This document shows positions 982 to 62,248 of a stretch of DNA of 64,000 bases, one piece after another. The position numbers were made by a program, and so were the translations under genes. The stretch covers positions 62,001 to 126,000 of the forward strand of contig JAKRSB010000081.1 of the NCBI GenBank assembly GCA_022402525.1, in the 5' to 3' direction. Every line of letters starts with the position of its first letter. Position 1 is the stretch's first letter. Origin of the DNA: Thermosynechococcaceae cyanobacterium MS004 (lineage in GTDB: Bacteria > Cyanobacteriota > Cyanobacteriia > Thermosynechococcales > Thermosynechococcaceae). The notes below the pieces were generated by a model. It was given only the letters and a program-made list of their open reading frames with translations. It was not told the DNA's origin and did no database searches.

Positions 982-1433
982 GCCGGATTCCTCATACTCC
1001 CTGACTAAGAAAAAGGAGACGTAATTTAAGTGGACTCAAAAATGGATGGCTCAAAGCGTGGTTAATTCCCCACCCAGTAAGGGGTCTAAGCAGAGAGCAG
1101 CTTGCTTTCTCTAGATTGTTCAGCTGATTCAATTTAGAGCGCTGCTGCCTAGGGCTGTTTAGAAAGTAGGGTCAAATTTTTCCGTTACTTTTAACGTTCA
1201 CGATTGTAGCTTCTCTTACAGTTTTTGGCCGTAGGTCGACTACGCTTCTCAGTCATTATGGCGTAATCCTTTAGTCGCGCGCAGGAAAACCAGGAATGAA
1301 TGTCATTTTAGGGTCGGAATGTAAAGTTATTTGTAGATGAAGGCCTAAAAAGACTCGCATTCCGTATCAAGAGTATTTTTGAAATCGTGTCTTTTTACCT
1401 TGCTGGGCAAGGGTTTGCAGCCTGTGGTCTGGA
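982..1433. other. sigA upstream region, no gene seen
   Basis: This 452-bp gap lies between the 5' end of sigA and the 3' end of the response regulator, both on the minus strand. It should contain the sigA promoter and leader. I see no open frame with coding character, no RNA gene and no convincing terminator hairpin. Confidence 0.5.
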
Positions 1434-2132
1434 CTATTCTCGTAGCACATAGCCAACGCCACGAACAGTTTGAATCAGCCGCTTTTCTTGGTTTTCTTCG
1501 AGCTTTAGGCGGAGATATCGGACATACACCTCAATGATGTTGGAGTCTCCCATGAAGTCGTAGCCCCACACTTCTTCAAGGATGCGATCGCGGGTCAGGA
1601 CTTGGCGTGGATGGCGCATTAGATAGACCAACAGGTCAAATTCTTTGGCGGTGAGTTCAATGGCGCGATTGCTGCGCCTAATGTCTCTGGTTTTTTGATT
1701 GAGAGTGAGGTCGGCAAACTGAAGCGTTTCGGCATCTTCTTCGCCGGTACGGCGGAGTTGGGCACGCACTCTCGCCAAGAGTTCTTCTATGCTGAAGGGT
1801 TTAACCACGTAGTCATCAGCTCCGGCATCGAGTCCCGATACGCGATCGCGGATTTCGTCTTTGGCCGTGACCAAAATGATAGGGGTTTTATTTCCCGTGG
1901 TGCGCAGGCGCTGGCAGACTTCCACCCCAGCCAGTCCAGGCAGCATCCAGTCCAAAATAATGAGGTCGAGCGGATGCTCACGGGCAGCGGTCAGTCCGGC
2001 AATGCCGTCTTCGGCGATCGTCACCTGATACCCTTCTTGGGCAAGCTCCATTGCCATAAACTGCGACAGCTTGGCTTCGTCTTCGACAATTAGAATATGT
2101 GGCTGAATAGAAGGCTGGATAGGAGGTTGCAT
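1434..2132 (-). CDS. OmpR/PhoB-family response regulator
   Basis: Two-component DNA-binding response regulator. The receiver domain (about residues 12-125) has the acidic pair EDE, the phosphoacceptor Asp in IILDWMLP and the conserved Lys in YVVKPFS. A winged-helix output domain follows, ending in the typical RLIQTVRGVGYVLRE. It lies 22-34 bp downstream of the histidine kinase gene on the same strand, so they probably form a cognate pair and operon. An ATG at 2132 is used; a GTG at 2144 would add four residues, and the two starts lie in a Gln-Pro repeat (MQP, IQP). The protein resembles cyanobacterial regulators of the ManR/RppA kind, but the signal sensed cannot be told from sequence. Confidence 0.92.
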   Translation of the reverse strand: MQPPIQPSIQPHILIVEDEAKLSQFMAMELAQEGYQVTIAEDGIAGLTAAREHPLDLIILDWMLPGLAGVEVCQRLRTTGNKTPIILVTAKDEIRDRVSGLDAGADDYVVKPFSIEELLARVRAQLRRTGEEDAETLQFADLTLNQKTRDIRRSNRAIELTAKEFDLLVYLMRHPRQVLTRDRILEEVWGYDFMGDSNIIEVYVRYLRLKLEENQEKRLIQTVRGVGYVLRE

Positions 2133-2166
2133 AAGGGGTTGCACGGGGGAAGATCTGGCGGCAGGC

Positions 2167-3699
2167 TTAGAGAGTCTGGGGGGAGATGGGTAAAAGGCTG
2201 ATCGGTGGCGAAGAAGACGGTGGAGAGATGGGCAGAGATACGGTAAAGGTGCTGCCTTCGCCGAGATGGGACTGGAGCGTTACGGTGCCGCCCATGCCTT
2301 CTACAAAGGTTTTGACTAAGGCTAGCCCTAGTCCGGTGCCGCCACTGCTGCGGGTGCGGGCCTCATCGACCCGATAGAACCGCTCAAAGATGCGGGACTG
2401 ATGCTTAAGGGGAATGCCAGGACTGCGATCGCGCACATGAATCAGGGCGCGTTGCTGAACTTGCTCTAGCGTGATGTTGACGGACGTATCGGGCGTGGAG
2501 TACTTGATGGCGTTTTCGACTAAATTTACGAGCACCTGCTTTAAGCAGTGGGCGTCAGCATAAACGGGCACCACCTCAGCACCCTCTACCTGGATTTCGC
2601 GTTGACCCACCTGCCCAGCCACCTTGGCCACCTCCGCCGCAATATCATTGAGCACCAGAAGTTCGGGACGGTAGGGCATATACCCATCATCGGCTCTGGC
2701 GAGATCCAGCAGATCTTGAAGCACGCGAATGGTGTGGTCTGCCTCAGAAGATGCAATACTGAGGGCTTCTTTTTGGGGTTCGGTTAAATTTGACCCTCGA
2801 CGCTGAACGCTCTCGATATAGCCGCGCACGATGGTGAGGGGGGTGCGCAGTTCGTGGGAGACATTGCTGACAAACTGTCGCTGCTGCTCGGCTGCATTGC
2901 GCTGCTGCTGCCAAGCTTCTGACAAATGCTGGAGCAGCATGTTGAAGGTTTCGGCCAGGTCGTGGACTTCGCTGGGGGCGTGGGTAATTGTAATGCGCTT
3001 CTCCGCGAGGTCATCTACGGAAATGGCTTTGGTCATCTGGTTCATGGAGGAGAGGGGCAGCAGCAGACGGCGCGCTTCGTAGGCCACTAGTCCAATGAGC
3101 AGCACCAGCGCCATGAGGTTTGCACCCACGAGGCTTTGAATGAGCTGATAGAATTTCTGGCGGTCTTCCGTAATGTCGTGGACGACGTAGAGCATTCCAA
3201 TGGGTTTTTGGCGAAGTGTAAGCGGATTGGAGCAGAGGAGAAAGTCATAGCCCTGAAGCCGATACACCCTAGGAATGGTGCTAGAAGGCTGCTGCAAGAG
3301 CTGCTTGAATAGGGGTAAGTTCATGCTGGCCTTGCGAGCATCTAGGGGCTCTACGACAAGCAGCTCATCATTCCCCGCCTGCTTGACGCCAATCCAGAGG
3401 CTATTTGCGGCTCGGTTTTTTAGCGCTTTATTGACGCTTTCTGGCACAGACAGCATTTCCCTGTAAAGGGTAATGTCATCTTCGACGCGCTTGGCGGTTT
3501 CTTGTAGGGCCTGCTTGTGGCTGGCGATCAAAATATCTTGCGTTTTCCAGGAAGTCCAGATCGTCACCACGCTGAATCCGGTGGTCATGAGGGCGGCAAT
3601 CCGCAGGGTCAAGGTGAACTGGAGCGATCGCGGCTGCCGCAGTGCTGTGGACAGAGGACGAGACAGGCTTTGAAGCGCAGGCACTGTTGGAAGCCGCAT
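2167..3699 (-). CDS. Sensor histidine kinase (HAMP, HisKA, HATPase)
   Basis: Membrane sensor kinase of 510 residues. A first membrane segment is near residues 33-50, an extracytoplasmic sensor region of about 130 residues follows, and a second segment is near 190-207. A HAMP linker leads to the HisKA box with phosphoacceptor His (FVSNVSHELRTPL, about residue 282). The HATPase domain has an N box (LVNLVENAIKYS) and G2 box (GGTGLGLALV). The G1 box reads DRSPGIP, with Ser where the first Gly of DxGxGI is usual; this may be tolerated. The C-terminus ends in a Ser/Pro-rich tail. The downstream response regulator is the likely partner. The sensor region resembles no family I can name. Confidence 0.92.
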   Translation of the reverse strand: MRLPTVPALQSLSRPLSTALRQPRSLQFTLTLRIAALMTTGFSVVTIWTSWKTQDILIASHKQALQETAKRVEDDITLYREMLSVPESVNKALKNRAANSLWIGVKQAGNDELLVVEPLDARKASMNLPLFKQLLQQPSSTIPRVYRLQGYDFLLCSNPLTLRQKPIGMLYVVHDITEDRQKFYQLIQSLVGANLMALVLLIGLVAYEARRLLLPLSSMNQMTKAISVDDLAEKRITITHAPSEVHDLAETFNMLLQHLSEAWQQQRNAAEQQRQFVSNVSHELRTPLTIVRGYIESVQRRGSNLTEPQKEALSIASSEADHTIRVLQDLLDLARADDGYMPYRPELLVLNDIAAEVAKVAGQVGQREIQVEGAEVVPVYADAHCLKQVLVNLVENAIKYSTPDTSVNITLEQVQQRALIHVRDRSPGIPLKHQSRIFERFYRVDEARTRSSGGTGLGLALVKTFVEGMGGTVTLQSHLGEGSTFTVSLPISPPSSSPPISLLPISPQTL

Positions 3700-3711
3700 G
3701 GGGTTGGAAGT

Positions 3712-3775
3712 GAGGGCAGATGGAGACGAGGGCAGATGGAGACGAGGGCAGATGGAGACGAGGGCAGATGGAGGT
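3712..3775. repeat. 16-bp tandem repeat, four copies
   Basis: The unit GAGGGCAGATGGAGAC is repeated four times just upstream of the kinase start codon; the last copy varies at its end. It is non-coding and probably arose by slippage, like several other short repeats in this window. Confidence 0.9.
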
Positions 3776-3807
3776 GAGGGTGTCCTTATCTATAACGTGA
3801 TCTATAG

Positions 3808-3953
3808 CGTGAGTTCGACAAGAAACAACCGCCCCTCATCCTCCCATCCTTCTTCTCCCTAGGGAGAAGAAGGGGCAGTTAAAAATCAAGCTTCTTTCTT
3901 GAGCCCCTCGCCGCCTTTGGGTGAGGGGTTTCAAGTGCATCATCGAGCTCACG
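3808..3953 (+). mobile_element. MITE-like element, copy A (146 bp)
   Basis: A non-coding 146-bp element is bounded by imperfect 11-bp terminal inverted repeats: CGTGAGTTCGA on the left and TCGAGCTCACG on the right. An inner palindrome (CTTCTCCCTAGGGAGAAG) sits near the left third. A closely similar copy lies in inverted orientation at 51052-51204. Presence at two distant intergenic loci with the same ends indicates a dispersed element, probably mobilised by a transposase encoded elsewhere. No target-site duplication is obvious at this copy. Confidence 0.75.
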
Positions 3954-4068
3954 TTTCTATCAGTATTAACGAGAAAACTGGACAAGGAATGATAGCGCCC
4001 TAATCCTGAGATAAGTTTTAGCTGAGAAGCTGGCAGGCTCAGCTTCAGAAAAGCATCTGTGGGGAGCC

Positions 4069-5667
4069 TCAGCTTAGCTGTGCCACGACTTGGTCAGTCA
4101 CCAAGGTTTCCTGGGTCAGCAGGTCTTCAACCGTAATGCGGAGTGATCGCCCTTCATCCACGCGAAAGAGCGCCCGAATGCGATCGCTGCCGGGATAGCC
4201 TAGGGGCTCTAGTTTGGCAATGCTGCGCGCCCCGTCTCGGTCATTGAGGGGCTGCACCTGTCCCTGGCGGCTAGAGAGCGAGCGAGTAATCAGGCGATCT
4301 CCATCAAAGTAAATTTCGGTTCCGCTGCTCTCTTGACCCAGTTCACCCACAATTAGCTCAATGCTGGGCTGAGCATCTGTAGAGGCTCCCAGGATCAGCT
4401 CCACAGGCTCGCTCATGGGGTAGGGCTGGCCTGATGGGATGAGGGTATGCCAGCTATGGGCATTTTGTCGCCGATCCCAGTAGCGAATGCCGTAGCTGTG
4501 ATAAAGAAAGTCTTTGACCTCGACCCCTTGAAGGATCTGCAAGGCACCCTGGGCGATCGCCTCGAAGGGTTTACTGCTCGAAATTTTGGTCGTGTCAAAA
4601 TACTGCCCCACCCAGGACTGCACTGCTGGAATGAGGCTGGTGCCGCCTACCAGTAGCACGGCATCAATGGTTTCGGCGGTAATGCCCTGACGACGCGCCT
4701 GCTGAAGAACCTGGGTCATGCTTTCGTCTAGGCGCTCAAAAAACTGATGGTCTTTGAGGACTTGCTCAAACTGCGATCGCTCTAGGGATAGTTCGTAGCT
4801 CTCGAAGGTCTCTTCGTTGAAGTACACTTCCGTGGCCTGGGGCTGAAGGGAGAGCTGGATTTTCAATCGCTCCGCCAGACGCAGGGTGAGGGCACTCACG
4901 GGTAAATTTTGAGCGTTGGCAAAAAACTCCACGATCCAGCTATCGAGATCCGTCCCGCCCAGATTTTGTCCTGCCTTGGCCAGTACACGAGCAATTTGGG
5001 GGCGCTGGGTTGTGCGATCGCTTAAGTTCTTTTCGCCCCATTTCAAAATGAAGCCCATCGGCTTAGCCTGGGCGGTGCGGCGCTCAAGCTGCACAAGGGA
5101 TAAATCTAGGGTGCCGCCGCCAAAGTCAACCACCAAGACCGTATCAGCCTCGGCCTTGCCATAGCCCAACGCTGCTGCGGTCGGCTCATCCAGGAGCCTG
5201 ACCTGCTCCACCTGAAGCTGCTGGCAAAGGGTGCCAAGCCACTGGCGATAGGGTTCAAAACTATCCACGGGTACGGTCAGCACCAGGGCATCGCCCGCGT
5301 CGGGGTAGCTTGCCCTGAGCTGCTGCATCAGCGTACGGATAAACCAGTCTCCCACCTGCTCAAAGCGGATGGGCAGCCCGTCTAGCTCCGGCAGAAACCC
5401 CTGCACCGAGGCCCCAATTCCCCGCTTAAACCCACGAAAAAAACGAGGGTCGCTCTGGATATCTAGGCCGCGATCGCGCACCTGCTGTCCCACCAACACC
5501 TGCCCCTGCGCCGCATTCTCCACATAGAGCAGGCTGGGCGTCAGGGGTGGATTTTGCCCAGCTTGGTGACTAATGCCCGATAGGGACAAGGTTTCCGGCT
5601 GCTGGGTAATGGGGTTCCAGCGGGCGATCGCGGTATTGCTGGTGCCAAAATCTATCGCGTAGCTCAA
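4069..5667 (-). CDS. Hsp70-family (DnaK-like) protein
   Basis: Hsp70/actin-fold ATPase of 532 residues. The phosphate-1 motif is at the N-terminus (IDFGTSNTAIA), phosphate-2 is DFGGGTLDLSLV and the adenosine motif is VLLVGGTSLIPAV. The nucleotide-binding domain covers about 1-375; the C-terminal 150 residues are shorter than in DnaK and lack a recognisable lid, so this is an Hsp70-like protein, not a canonical chaperone. The start is a TTG with GAGAAG about 7 nt upstream; no in-frame ATG fits the conserved N-terminus. It stands alone between a MITE-like element and a barrel protein gene. Its client is unknown. Confidence 0.88.
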   Translation of the reverse strand: MSYAIDFGTSNTAIARWNPITQQPETLSLSGISHQAGQNPPLTPSLLYVENAAQGQVLVGQQVRDRGLDIQSDPRFFRGFKRGIGASVQGFLPELDGLPIRFEQVGDWFIRTLMQQLRASYPDAGDALVLTVPVDSFEPYRQWLGTLCQQLQVEQVRLLDEPTAAALGYGKAEADTVLVVDFGGGTLDLSLVQLERRTAQAKPMGFILKWGEKNLSDRTTQRPQIARVLAKAGQNLGGTDLDSWIVEFFANAQNLPVSALTLRLAERLKIQLSLQPQATEVYFNEETFESYELSLERSQFEQVLKDHQFFERLDESMTQVLQQARRQGITAETIDAVLLVGGTSLIPAVQSWVGQYFDTTKISSSKPFEAIAQGALQILQGVEVKDFLYHSYGIRYWDRRQNAHSWHTLIPSGQPYPMSEPVELILGASTDAQPSIELIVGELGQESSGTEIYFDGDRLITRSLSSRQGQVQPLNDRDGARSIAKLEPLGYPGSDRIRALFRVDEGRSLRITVEDLLTQETLVTDQVVAQLS

Positions 5668-54771: not shown

Positions 54772-54845
54772 GGACGCATAGCTCAGTTGGTTAGAGCACC
54801 ACGTTGACATCGTGGGGGTCTCCCGTTCGAGTCGGGATGTGTCCA
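54772..54845 (+). tRNA. tRNA-Val (GAC)
   Basis: A complete cloverleaf: acceptor stem GGACGCA/TGTGTCC, D stem GCTC/GAGC, anticodon stem CCACG/CGTGG with loop TTGACAT (anticodon GAC at 54806-54808), T arm TCCCG TTCGAGT CGGGA, and discriminator A. No CCA is encoded. It is the likely integration site for the element to its right. Confidence 0.97.
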
Positions 54846-54852
54846 TTCTCTC

Positions 54853-54973: not shown

Positions 54974-54995
54974 TTGTGATCATGAATGATCACAA
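54974..54995. promoter_or_regulatory. Perfect 10-bp palindrome directly before the integrase start
   Basis: TTGTGATCAT, a 2-bp spacer, and ATGATCACAA form a perfect inverted repeat immediately before the ATG at 54997. It could be an operator for autoregulation or an RNA hairpin that limits integrase translation. Confidence 0.6.
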
Positions 54996-54996
54996 A

Positions 54997-56100
54997 ATGA
55001 AGCGCACCCCTAGAGGTGGGGTGACAGTCCAGGTGCTTAAAGAGCGGCTCCGGCTAGTCTGGAGCCATGGGGGCAAGCGCTATTTTTTGAGCCTAGGGCT
55101 GGCCGATACAAAGCTTAACCGCTTAGCTGCTGACATTAAGGCGCGGCAAATTGAGGCGGACATTGTTACGGCAAACTTTGACCCCACGCTAAACAAGTAC
55201 AGGGGGGAGGGTCGCCGCACAACGGACATGCTGGTGACTCAGCTTTTTGAGCGATTCACGGATTACAAGTCCAAGCGAGTTGACTTGCGGACGCTCCAGA
55301 AATATCGGGCGCTGCTGGGGCATCTATCGGATTACTTTGGGCAAGGCGCGATCGCCCAGGTCAGAGAGAGGGAAGCTGAGAAATTCAAGGATTGGATGTT
55401 GAGTCGAATGGGGCCAGGGACTTTTAGGGATTACCTAAGCCTTGTAAATGCCTGTTGGCTATGGGGAATTAGGCAAGGGCTAATCCAGGTCAACCCTTGG
55501 GCAGATTTGAAGGTCAGGGTTAATCCTAAGCAGCGGCCTAAGCCGTTTACCCGTGAAGAAATAAAGAAAATTGTTGAAGGGTTTCGTGCCCATTCCCGAT
55601 GGAATGTTTATGGCGATTTTGTAGAGTTTTTATTCGGGACGGGGTGTCGGACTGGGGAAGCCGTGGGGTTGCGATGGCAGCATGTTTCTGAAGATTTTCA
55701 GACCGTTTGGATTGGGGAGTCTATTAGCCGTGGGCGAAGAAAGACCACCAAAACCAACAGGGCGCGTTACATTACACTGTCGCCTCGACTAAGCAAATTA
55801 CTGCAAAGCCGAAAGCCTTTAGATGCGGACTCAGATGAGCTGGTGTTTTGCAGCCCTCAAGGGTTTGCCATTGATGACCACAATTTTAGAAACCGCGCCT
55901 GGACAGATGTGCTGACCCTTGCTGGGGTTGAATACCGCAAGCCTTACAGCACTCGGTCAACCCTTATCAGCCATTTGCTGGATATGGGGCGATCGCCTGC
56001 TGAGGTTGCTGAGTTGGTGGGCGATGATGTTGCGACTATCTACAAGTTTTATGCAGGGAACGTGACCTCACGGCCTCGCTTGCCAAACCTGCTAGATTAA
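54997..56100 (+). CDS. int: Tyrosine recombinase (phage-type integrase)
   Basis: Site-specific recombinase of 367 residues. The N-terminal arm- and core-binding part covers about 1-180; the catalytic domain carries Arg218 (GCRTGEAVGL), Lys252, Arg320 and the nucleophile Tyr352 (IYKFYAG). The HxxR box reads YSTR and the second His position (LGH) is GDD, changes also seen in some phage integrases. An ATG at 54997 is used; earlier GTG 54976 and ATG 54982 lie in the palindrome. Its end overlaps the convergent excisionase-like gene by 4 bp. Located beside tRNA-Val, the likely target. Confidence 0.93.
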   Translation: MKRTPRGGVTVQVLKERLRLVWSHGGKRYFLSLGLADTKLNRLAADIKARQIEADIVTANFDPTLNKYRGEGRRTTDMLVTQLFERFTDYKSKRVDLRTLQKYRALLGHLSDYFGQGAIAQVREREAEKFKDWMLSRMGPGTFRDYLSLVNACWLWGIRQGLIQVNPWADLKVRVNPKQRPKPFTREEIKKIVEGFRAHSRWNVYGDFVEFLFGTGCRTGEAVGLRWQHVSEDFQTVWIGESISRGRRKTTKTNRARYITLSPRLSKLLQSRKPLDADSDELVFCSPQGFAIDDHNFRNRAWTDVLTLAGVEYRKPYSTRSTLISHLLDMGRSPAEVAELVGDDVATIYKFYAGNVTSRPRLPNLLD

Positions 56101-56503: not shown

Positions 56504-57175
56504 CTAGATGGGCACCAAAACTCTGGACGATGCCGACTTTCCCAGCCAAAGCCAGCGGTGAGTTACCTTTTGCCCTGGGCTGAAAGCAGTATCATTTGGC
56601 GCAGAAGCAGTACCAGATGGTGCAGAAGCAGTACCATTTGGTGCAGATTGGGTCACAAAATCTAGCTGCTGTCGCATGAAAAGTTTTTCACCAATGCCGT
56701 CTACATCCACTAGCACTAGGCCAAAGGTTTCAGCTCCCTGAACCGTGGCAAGCATCCCAGTCAGGTGCTCCAGCGGCGGGCCAGCTAAGACGATCCGGAC
56801 GCGATCGCCTATCTTTAGTTCGTCCAATAGGCCGTACTGAATGGCCATAGACATTTCGTCTTCTTCGTAGTCCTCCAATGACGGCATGGGAACTGGCTCC
56901 GGCACATATAGCGGGTGGATAACTTCTGCCCGCCAAACAGGGACAACCCCGCCGCCGTCGAGCTGTACTGTGAGCTTCTCAGTTTCCAGAACCGTTGCAC
57001 TGCGCCAGTTGTAGCCCATGAGGACTCGCACCCTATCACCAGCCCTCGCCCAGCCCTTTACTTTTTCTAGCGGAATATGGCGCGGCTGATCGTCAACTAG
57101 GACAAGCGCGTGGGTATCGGTGCAGTCGGTGACTGGGTAGGGGATGAGGCGATCGCCCCAGCAGAAGGTTTTCAT
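56504..57175 (-). CDS. Phage early protein with SH3/KOW-like repeats
   Basis: A 223-residue protein of unknown function. At least three segments have the pattern GDRVRI-GxLxxV-x-LVxVD (GDRVRVLMGYNWRSATVLE; KIGDRVRIVLAG... TGMLATVQ), typical of small SH3/KOW-type beta barrels. A tandem repeat (SAPNGTASAPSGTASAPND) near residue 185 is encoded by 21-bp DNA repeats. Similar modules occur in the Dam fusion at the far end of the operon, so the two may share an ancestor. The gene upstream is 2 bp away. Confidence 0.7.
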   Translation of the reverse strand: MKTFCWGDRLIPYPVTDCTDTHALVLVDDQPRHIPLEKVKGWARAGDRVRVLMGYNWRSATVLETEKLTVQLDGGGVVPVWRAEVIHPLYVPEPVPMPSLEDYEEDEMSMAIQYGLLDELKIGDRVRIVLAGPPLEHLTGMLATVQGAETFGLVLVDVDGIGEKLFMRQQLDFVTQSAPNGTASAPSGTASAPNDTAFSPGQKVTHRWLWLGKSASSRVLVPI

Positions 57176-59891: not shown

Positions 59892-60371
59892 TCAGAGAAT
59901 AAAGTTCGCTCCGGTGCAAATATCTGTAGTGGTGAGAATGTCTTCAGGGACTAGAATTCCGTGGGTATTCCAGGTGCGATTCGGGATAACTCGTTTTGGG
60001 AAGCAGCTTTCCCATGAGCGCATCCGCCCCTTAAGCCTTGAAGCATCTAGGATGATGACCCGCCGCTTTTTGGGCTGATACAGCACCACCCAGCCTGCCT
60101 TTGTGGTGTACGCCCAGCCCTCTTTGACGACGACTGAATTACGCTCAACTGAGATGGTTTCGAGAAAGAAGTTACCTGTCGTCTCGCTCTTGGCATCGCA
60201 TTTATATTCAACGAAGTGTTGCTTGCCTCGGTACTCGAACACTCGGTCGATGCCGTTCCGCTGTTGGGCTGGGGTGGCTGGCGTAATGGTGTACCAACGC
60301 TGAAAATATTGGTCTAGCTCTAGCTCGGCTTGCTGGCCTTGCTTGTGCTGTGTGGCGAATTGGTATGGCAT
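59892..60371 (-). CDS. PD-(D/E)XK nuclease-like protein
   Basis: A protein of 159 residues. The pattern GID42RVFEYRGKQHFVE55YK57CD fits the catalytic D-(E)xK core of PD-(D/E)XK nucleases, as in phage recombination or Holliday-junction enzymes. ATG at 60371 is preceded by AGGAGA and lies 2 bp after the Dam fusion gene. Substrate unknown. Confidence 0.7.
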   Translation of the reverse strand: MPYQFATQHKQGQQAELELDQYFQRWYTITPATPAQQRNGIDRVFEYRGKQHFVEYKCDAKSETTGNFFLETISVERNSVVVKEGWAYTTKAGWVVLYQPKKRRVIILDASRLKGRMRSWESCFPKRVIPNRTWNTHGILVPEDILTTTDICTGANFIL

Positions 60372-60373
60372 GA

Positions 60374-62248
60374 CTACTCTCCTAGGAGTTCTGGTACTAG
60401 GGGCTGGCAAACGGTGCCTAGGGGCGAATAGGCGCGGAAAAACTTATCGGGGTCTGGCCCTCGGTAGAAAATCACGACCCCAAAGAAGGAGCTGTTATCG
60501 TTGCCTAGAAACTTCACGGATTTGTGAATCAATACGAAGGCGGTGCATAGTTCACACAGCATTTCAAACCAGGCTGGGCGGCAGTCGCACTTGGCCAAGA
60601 AGAATAGGTGTCCTGGCGCTTCGTTGGCCTTGACGGCAAATTCTTCCATCCGCGAAAAGGGAGGGTTTACCCAAATGCTCTCGGCTTCCCAGGGTTGGGA
60701 AAGTCCATCGTCTTCAATGGTGTAAACCGTTTCAGCCGGGACGTTCGGGCTGTGGTGGCTATTGCTGGCTGGGTCTAGGCCAAAGCGGTCTGTACCTACT
60801 ACTTCAAGGGCTGGCTTCCAGACCCATTCAGGGGTGTAGTGCTCATCGGTTCCTGTTCTGGCTGCGATGAACTCAGGCTCAGGTGCAGGCACTACACTTG
60901 CAGGCTCTAGCCCCCAGACTTTTCCGCCAGATCTGACAGTAATCATCGTGGGAGAGGCGCGACCAATAAATTCGCCTACGATGGTTTCACCCGTTACTAT
61001 GAAAACCCCAGAGACGCGATCGCCTGCTTTAAACTCTGGTTCCCCCTGAGGCGTGACGCCTTCCTCTTCTGTCGTTGTCTCTACTGCGTGACCATAGTAT
61101 TGGTCACGCTCTTGATCCGTAGCAGCTCTCAGAGTTAGGCTTACCACCCCACAGCGATCGCCGGCTGCCGTGATGATTATTGAATAATGGCTGCGGCGAA
61201 GATCGGGGCAGTCTAGCTCTAGAGTGCCGACCTCATACCTGGTTGTGGGATTGTAAAATCCGGCTACAAGTTCGCCAGCATTAAAGCCTGGGATTACGCG
61301 ATCGCCCTGTTTATCTTCCGCATGGGTTTCTTCTGGTTCATCTGGAGGATCGGCGGGGCTGTCCTCACCTTCGCTTGGCTCTGGTTCCGCTCTCTCTAAA
61401 ACTGAGGCATGGTCGATCAGGGTGCATTTGTCGGATTCTAGGCCCAGATATTTATTGCCAACTCTAGTAACAACCCCTTCAATCACTCCCCCATCTTTAA
61501 GGTCAATACCCCGCACCAAGTCACCGACTTTAAACTTAGGCTCACTGGGCACTGGGGGAGGCTCTGGGGCATCGTTCAGGTATTTCGCAGCCTCTTGGGC
61601 TGAAGGACGGCGCAAGGTGGCAGCATCAGCGTAGAGTTTCTGTCCTTTCTGATTGATTAGGGCCACTACGTTTTGACCTGGCCCTAAGCCGACCATTTCT
61701 CCAATAACCGATTGCCCGGAGAAAGGATGCACCCCTGCTAACAAATCACCTGGCTCAGCCTGTTGGAATACCTCAAAGGGGGCTGGCTGTGTAACGCGAT
61801 CGCTCTCTTCACCCTTAGCAGCGGCGATCGCCTGCTTTGCTGTGGTGTAGGCGATTGTCTCGCCTGACTCAGCGCGGCTAATCAATTCAGTTCGCACCGA
61901 GTCAGGTGTAGAAGGTGAGGCAATTAGGTATAGTGCCGAAGTTGCTAAATCCAAATCGGTAAAATTTACCGTTTTGAAACTTTTAAACACGCTCATAAAT
62001 TTTCGAGCGGTGCTGTCTGACATCCCAAACTCTTTCTCGATCCAGTCCGTGAACTGCCCATGTCCTAGCCAATCTTTGACCTGCACCAGGTGCTGTCCAA
62101 TATCCCAAATATCTTGGGCTGTACGACGCATCAGGTTCTTAATGGCGTCACGGTGCAAAATGACCGCTTCTTTTGTTGTGGGGTCTAAGACGGCATAGTC
62201 AAAGCTCAGTTGGACTATTTCAGTCGTAGTCACGGTGGTTCCCCTCAT
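60374..62248 (-). CDS. DUF3102 - SH3-like repeats - Dam adenine methyltransferase fusion
   Basis: A protein of 624 residues with three parts. The N-terminal 145 residues match DUF3102 (RTAQDIWDIGQHLVQVKDWL, FGMSDSTARKFMSVFKSF), a ParB/KorB-like DNA-binding helical domain. The middle has four repeats (about 165-215, 238-286, 321-375, 404-455) of the GDxVxG-xGxIxG type. The C-terminal 160 residues are a phage Dam-like N6-adenine methyltransferase (DEHYTPEWVWKPA, DPASNSHHSPN, VNPPFSRMEEF). ATG at 62248 is used; GTG at 62233 with AGGGGA upstream is also good. It overlaps the small membrane gene before it. Confidence 0.85.
   Translation of the reverse strand: MRGTTVTTTEIVQLSFDYAVLDPTTKEAVILHRDAIKNLMRRTAQDIWDIGQHLVQVKDWLGHGQFTDWIEKEFGMSDSTARKFMSVFKSFKTVNFTDLDLATSALYLIASPSTPDSVRTELISRAESGETIAYTTAKQAIAAAKGEESDRVTQPAPFEVFQQAEPGDLLAGVHPFSGQSVIGEMVGLGPGQNVVALINQKGQKLYADAATLRRPSAQEAAKYLNDAPEPPPVPSEPKFKVGDLVRGIDLKDGGVIEGVVTRVGNKYLGLESDKCTLIDHASVLERAEPEPSEGEDSPADPPDEPEETHAEDKQGDRVIPGFNAGELVAGFYNPTTRYEVGTLELDCPDLRRSHYSIIITAAGDRCGVVSLTLRAATDQERDQYYGHAVETTTEEEGVTPQGEPEFKAGDRVSGVFIVTGETIVGEFIGRASPTMITVRSGGKVWGLEPASVVPAPEPEFIAARTGTDEHYTPEWVWKPALEVVGTDRFGLDPASNSHHSPNVPAETVYTIEDDGLSQPWEAESIWVNPPFSRMEEFAVKANEAPGHLFFLAKCDCRPAWFEMLCELCTAFVLIHKSVKFLGNDNSSFFGVVIFYRGPDPDKFFRAYSPLGTVCQPLVPELLGE

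Follow-up and report, generated by a model that had tools for sequence, protein, structure and literature searches.

The window, meaning the whole 64,000-nucleotide stretch of cyanobacterial DNA analysed here, carries on its minus strand a gene that joins a DUF3102 domain, four small repeats and a Dam-type methyltransferase in a single protein, with a second gene of putative nuclease type directly downstream. The features of this locus and of the prophage end in which it is found are as follows.

54772..54845, plus strand: tRNA-Val(gac), the prophage integration site
54804..54847, plus strand: left attachment core, a 44-bp exact repeat of the 3' half of tRNA-Val
54976..56100, plus strand: phage integrase (phrog_1, E 8e-49)
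59892..60371, minus strand: putative PD-(D/E)XK nuclease-type protein, 159 aa (family alignment, model and structural matches)
60374..62248, minus strand: DUF3102 - four repeats - Dam fusion (single open frame, 624 aa)
60389..60871, minus strand: Dam-type N6-adenine methyltransferase domain, residues 460-620 (PF05869, phrog_111 and model)
60656..60667, minus strand: catalytic NPPF (motif IV), residues 528-531 (alignments)
60878..61036, minus strand: repeat R4, residues 405-457 (pairwise and profile tests)
61118..61288, minus strand: repeat R3, residues 321-377 (pairwise and profile tests)
61382..61537, minus strand: repeat R2, residues 238-289 (pairwise and profile tests), the best modelled of the four, a predicted four-strand small barrel
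61601..61756, minus strand: repeat R1, residues 165-216 (pairwise and profile tests)
61799..62221, minus strand: DUF3102 domain, residues 10-150 (Pfam, alignment of 18 relatives, model and VIA-align)

The element is a complete prophage of about 40.5 kb (contig positions 116804-157294) integrated in tRNA-Val. The second copy of the 44-bp core lies at contig position 157294 (window coordinate 95294, past the window end), and the region between the two attachment copies holds the integrase, a repressor-like gene and the genes for the portal, major head protein, tape measure, terminase and tail. The fusion gene is part of a leftward early operon, near the genes of a DnaD-like loader and a phage metallopeptidase. 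Just upstream of it, a search for operator-like repeats and palindromes revealed nothing notable, the one imperfect pair of 9 nt being located inside the gene. GATC is rarer in the prophage than in the left host flank (3.9 versus 5.5 per kb), and the densities of HIP1 (GCGATCGC) in prophage and left host flank are closer than those of GATC (1.2 versus 1.5 per kb).

The preliminary description had placed DUF3102, four repeats and a Dam methyltransferase in one protein at 60374-62248, and both the open frame and the Pfam matches agree with it, with the proviso that translation may really start at residue 6, where a GTG (62233) follows AGGGG. PF11300 (DUF3102) matches residues 46-92 (30.3 bits, E 5e-7; curated cut-off of 24.4 passed), and 20 columns are invariant in the 18-row alignment of this domain. 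PF05869 (Dam) matches residues 466-584 (40.1 bits, E 4e-10; curated cut-off of 28.1 passed) and, in PHROGs, the C-terminal part of the fusion corresponds to the DNA methyltransferase family phrog_111 (E 2e-21). Alignments reveal the motifs of the Dam domain to be intact, namely LDPAS (the SAM-binding D-P-[AC]) and NPPF (the catalytic [DN]PP[YFW]). The ParB_N CTPase domain PF02195 has no Pfam match in the fusion protein at E <= 1, sequence searches returned no reliable solved relative of the protein, and the defence-system library PADLOC gave nothing for the locus beyond a weak 'orphan methyltransferase' match.

The AlphaFold2 model of the fusion, built on 45 aligned rows, reaches a pLDDT of about 95 in both the DUF3102 and the Dam part. 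The DUF3102 part is predicted to be all-helical and resembles, by its predicted fold, a Noc/ParB-like DNA-binding domain, with a moderate VIA-align Z of 8.1 to the DNA-binding region of Noc (7nfu; rmsd 2.5 A over 99 aa). Noc is a relative of ParB, and the earlier suggestion of a ParB-like N-terminal domain is supported at the level of predicted fold. The Dam part likewise has moderate Z values to E. coli Dam (8.9) and T4Dam (8.8). Ranked first by VIA-align for this phage domain (60389-60871) is PCIF1/CAPAM, a cap-specific adenosine methyltransferase of eukaryotes (Z 10.4), which likewise uses an NPPF motif. Missing Foldseek or VIA-align matches were given no weight as evidence.

Between these two domains lie the repeats, units of about 52 aa that share an xxGDxVxG-type start and, further on, another conserved glycine. 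Their kinship goes beyond chance: none of 2000 shuffles reached the pairwise scores of R1-R4 and R2-R4, R3-R4 has p = 0.002, and a leave-one-out profile built on three repeats, with the remaining sequence masked, finds the fourth in every case (E 0.003, 0.005, 0.02 and 3e-8). The linkers between R2, R3, R4 and Dam are acidic and proline-rich, which makes a beads-on-a-string arrangement of these parts likely. In the AlphaFold2 model R2 has four strands and a short helix (pLDDT about 70), R1 has three strands of low confidence, and R3 and R4 are left unmodelled (pLDDT about 30), as expected where the alignment is only one or two rows deep. The matches of the repeats to small barrels of the Hfq/Sm type in Foldseek have high probability, yet E values of 0.15 or more. 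Of the four SH3-like repeats previously proposed, their mutual homology is thus upheld and their barrel nature only in part: a small-barrel fold is plausible, and no firmer than that, because R2 is weakly modelled, R3 and R4 are unmodelled and the Hfq-type matches are poor in E.

Searched alone, the repeat region has no relative in the 386 cyanobacterial genomes. The middle regions of four other loci (L095, L017, L004 and L013) and a further protein of the same prophage (window 56504-57175) were tried as homologues with the repeat profile and were not significant, the lowest p values being 0.036 and 0.044, uncorrected, and that of L095 being 0.30, so occurrence of the same repeats elsewhere is not claimed. 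The protein at 56504-57175, of 223 aa, resembles a string of small GD-type barrels and weakly matches ProQ_C (E 0.0013, below the cut-off), with no measurable kinship to the four repeats.

Matches to the fusion protein occur in 28 of the 386 cyanobacterial genomes, its own included, and are mostly to DUF3102 alone and in some cases to the methyltransferase alone; the whole fusion was found nowhere else in this phylum search. Scans of genome and viral contigs with the single protein gave nothing, or Dam relatives only, and DUF3102 relatives beyond the cyanobacterial search needed alignment-based scans, which found 42 loci among bacterial genomes and another 26 among viral contigs. A methyltransferase motif is present in the tail of five of the 26 viral DUF3102 proteins, comprising Dam (L095 and L084), phrog_799 (L085 and L086) and MT-A70 (L090), and in none (0/48) of the DUF3102 frames of cellular loci. 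DUF3102 is therefore partnered in viruses by a middle region with Dam (L095), by bare Dam, by phrog_799 methyltransferases and by MT-A70. The preliminary description knew of no such fusion with four repeats; L095, a viral contig from IMG/VR, has the same order of DUF3102, middle region and Dam. The three-part layout is rare, not unique, and phage methyltransferases with N-terminal ParB-type domains have been published (PMC12704722). Because L095 shares the order and such ParB-methyltransferase fusions are published, the layout alone is a rare variant of an already known architecture. The combination of DUF3102 with a methyltransferase was not found in a literature search, nor, judged by titles and abstracts, do any of the three papers that mention DUF3102 deal with its function.

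A different arrangement is seen on cyanobacterial chromosomes (L005, L008, L010, L044, L055, L056, L071 and others), where DUF3102 is followed by an N6_N4-like tail of the ParB-linked type in which other residues stand in place of the DPP[YW] and FxGxG-type motifs, for example TSDDW and FPWLP. The resemblance to N6_N4 comes from one weak Pfam match (E 0.15) together with a reading of the sequences, and the tail is apparently a conserved inactive methyltransferase of many filamentous cyanobacteria. A viral ORF of 1137 aa (L136, IMG/VR 3300018719_000003, 1091-4501) combines a cytosine-methylase-like stretch, RNase HII, an SH3-like segment, a DUF3102-like stretch and Dam.

What the preliminary description of the fusion leaves out is the nearly coupled PD-(D/E)XK gene directly downstream, which recurs with methyltransferases. 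The stop codon of the methyltransferase, TAG, is followed by two bases and then by the ATG of the gene at 59892-60371, whose product is a PD-(D/E)XK-type protein and putative nuclease, as judged by an invariant E/D/E-x-K pattern in the family alignment (E16, D42, E55 and K57), a confident model (pLDDT 89.5) and the nearest solved structures. I-Ssp6803I is the nearest solved fold (Foldseek E 4.5e-5, VIA Z 9.6), together with Hjc (VIA Z 8.4, rmsd 2.5, 98 aa) and RecU (Z about 6.4-7.0), and restriction enzymes score a little lower (HinP1I, VIA Z 7.9; PvuII, 6.9), the values for I-Ssp6803I, Hjc and HinP1I being within about 2 of each other. In Pfam, the window protein has no match to PF11645 (PDDEXK_5), and one of its relatives matches this family weakly (E 0.015, below the cut-off). 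A coat protein (6scl) that came up as a solved relative was judged a chance match, leaving the nuclease without a reliable solved relative by sequence. Tblastn with three family members as queries found none in isolated phages. The chromosomal relatives in cyanobacteria have no adjacent methyltransferase, so the family can stand alone. Three of these chromosomal relatives (L118, L119 and L121) lie beside a DUF7226 gene (two with DUF6293_C), with no methyltransferase seen, and this is perhaps another two-gene system.

Relatives of the nuclease were first met beside the DUF3102-methyltransferase fusions L095 and L086. Two scans of viral contigs with nuclease-only profiles, leaving out these two seeds and counting L203=L228 and L209=L210 once each, produced ten loci (L203, L204, L205, L208, L209/L210, L211, L227, L229, L230 and L231). 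Eight of the ten, a raw count from small numbers, are closely preceded on their strand by a methyltransferase ORF: four Dam (L204, L205, L227 and L230), three phrog_799 (L208, L209 and L231) and one MT-A70 (L229). No methyltransferase adjoins the nuclease in L203 and in the short contig L211. DUF3102 fusions with a neighbour of the nuclease family are L086 (phrog_799), L090 (MT-A70, from the DUF3102 scan) and L095 (Dam), the last with the gene order reversed and the nuclease upstream of the fusion. Weaker associations of nuclease and methylase come from the Dam scan (L135 and L195), in which about 77 of 80 loci have no recognisable nuclease partner in the locus DNA examined. An ATGA/GTGA overlap of stop and start is found in L205, L227, L231, L090 and L135, and small methylase-nuclease overlaps in L208, L209 and L230; the gap is about 0.2 kb in L204 and 2 nt in the window.

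The aligned viral nucleases are 30-36% identical to the window protein, so a single phage copied several times does not account for these loci. In the nuclease tree, which has a long window row and resolves many other branches poorly, the partners of phrog_799 form one clade (support 100/100), and methylase class changes 6 times on the tree compared to 10.0 with shuffled labels (0/200 as low). The N-terminal parts of the methylases differ inside this clade, with DUF3102 in L086 and a ParB-type domain in L209. A literature search did not find a PD-(D/E)XK nuclease partner of such phage methyltransferases.

The reading preferred here, with a probability of roughly 0.45, sees in the fusion the modifying member of a restriction-modification-like pair carried by the prophage, with the DUF3102/repeat part serving to tether or autoregulate the methylase. 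The Dam domain would methylate adenine in DNA, and the DUF3102 head and four repeats would hold the methylase on particular DNA or repress its own operon. Precedent for autoregulation is offered by M.EcoRII and M.SsoII, whose N-terminal HTH regions repress their own operons. The downstream PD-(D/E)XK protein would cut DNA without the mark, whether that of a competing phage or of the host, and phage DNA bearing the mark would be protected. A role of the fusion in DNA targeting or protection of the element is plausible on account of its predicted ParB/Noc-like head, its intact methyltransferase motifs and the completeness of the prophage. What is observed are the domains and repeats, catalytic residues that are intact in both proteins, the close gene order and the recurrence in diverged viruses with three unrelated methyltransferase families. 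From these we infer a nuclease that is active, methylation-sensitive and cognate, as well as what the DUF3102/repeat part binds. Several findings speak against the pair, namely the closeness of the nuclease fold to a homing endonuclease and to Holliday-junction resolvases, with restriction enzymes slightly lower, the chromosomal relatives and L203 and L211 that lack a methylase, the reversed order in L095, the many Dam loci that have no partner and the PADLOC result, which went no further than a weak orphan-methyltransferase match.

The main rival, which seems rather unlikely, holds that an ordinary phage orphan anti-restriction methylase lies beside a Holliday-junction resolvase or recombination nuclease of the replication module, the two being neighbours through early-gene packing. 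The Z scores of Hjc and RecU, the DnaD-like loader and metallopeptidase genes close by and the demonstration that phage orphan methylases protect against restriction (PMC4190342) are in keeping with this rival. Early-region packing alone, however, predicts neither immediate overlap with three unrelated methylase families nor the co-segregation of nuclease subclade and methylase class, and while the fold fits both readings, the restriction-modification-like pair is favoured because of the three methylase families and the tight coupling.

Improbable, but consistent with the predicted Noc/ParB-like fold of the head, is an epigenetic or transcriptional regulator of the prophage, whereby DUF3102 and the repeats would bring Dam to operators and methylation would switch phage or host promoters. 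The position of the fusion gene in the early operon beside the repressor region would suit this role, as would the prophage Dam PamA, which methylates GATC and changes the expression of host genes (PMC12435837), but the lack of a notable operator-like repeat just upstream argues against a regulator, and the coupled nuclease is left unexplained. Very improbable is a free-standing homing endonuclease that is merely mobile and became inserted next to methylase genes. I-Ssp6803I as best structural match and the one weak PDDEXK_5 match in the family both point to a homing enzyme, yet such an enzyme should adjoin many different genes rather than a methylase in 8/10 loci, and these methylases are from unrelated families, share no insertion site and are tightly arranged with the nuclease.

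Beyond the window, the restriction-modification-like pair leads to a wider proposal, put forward still more tentatively, that some 'orphan' phage methyltransferases belong to a mobile two-gene module, a phage-borne and tethered form of restriction-modification. Such a module would combine a methyltransferase, drawn from one of three or more unrelated families, an exchangeable DNA-binding head (DUF3102, ParB-type or other, sometimes with barrel-like repeats) and one conserved small PD-(D/E)XK family of nucleases translated directly after the methyltransferase. The recurrent nuclease partner, more than the layout alone, is the part of the finding most worth the attention of a specialist. The usual view of phage DNA methyltransferases as orphans that counter restriction stems from the lack of a visible cognate nuclease, and a recurrent, tightly coupled PD-(D/E)XK partner would, if true, change this view for a subset of them. 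It would point to phages bearing a restriction weapon of their own, or else a nuclease guided by methylation, and DUF3102 would gain a candidate role in such enzymes, that of their DNA-binding head.

Among known systems, the phage Dam/N6-adenine methyltransferases (PF05869, phrog_111) are alike in their D-P-[AC] and NPP[YF] motifs and in a predicted fold like that of E. coli Dam and T4Dam. PamA of the S. aureus mosaic phage phi11, described as an orphan that methylates GATC (PMC12435837), is a bare methylase without DUF3102 and repeats, unlike the window fusion. The ParB-CTPase - methyltransferase fusions, as presented in the available portion of their source (PMC12704722), likewise carry a ParB-type DNA-binding N-terminus and a DNA methyltransferase on a prophage, whereas the head of the window protein is DUF3102 without PF02195 and is followed by four repeats; a linked PD-(D/E)XK gene is not mentioned in that portion. 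L095 (IMG/VR 3300032328_001218) is similar in its DUF3102, middle region with SH3-like-looking segments and Dam, and in an adjoining gene of the same nuclease family, but no homology to the four repeats is recognisable in its middle, and its nuclease gene lies upstream rather than downstream. I-Ssp6803I and Hjc/RecU are the closest solved folds of the neighbouring protein, whose gene is linked to methylases and not to an intron. Type II restriction-modification systems with PvuII and HinP1I likewise have adjacent methylase and PD-(D/E)XK genes; the window pair, a candidate for such a system, differs in its location on a prophage and in the DNA-binding head and repeats of its methylase, and has in common with them adjacent methyltransferase and nuclease genes (2-nt spacing), the PD-(D/E)XK residues and the predicted fold.
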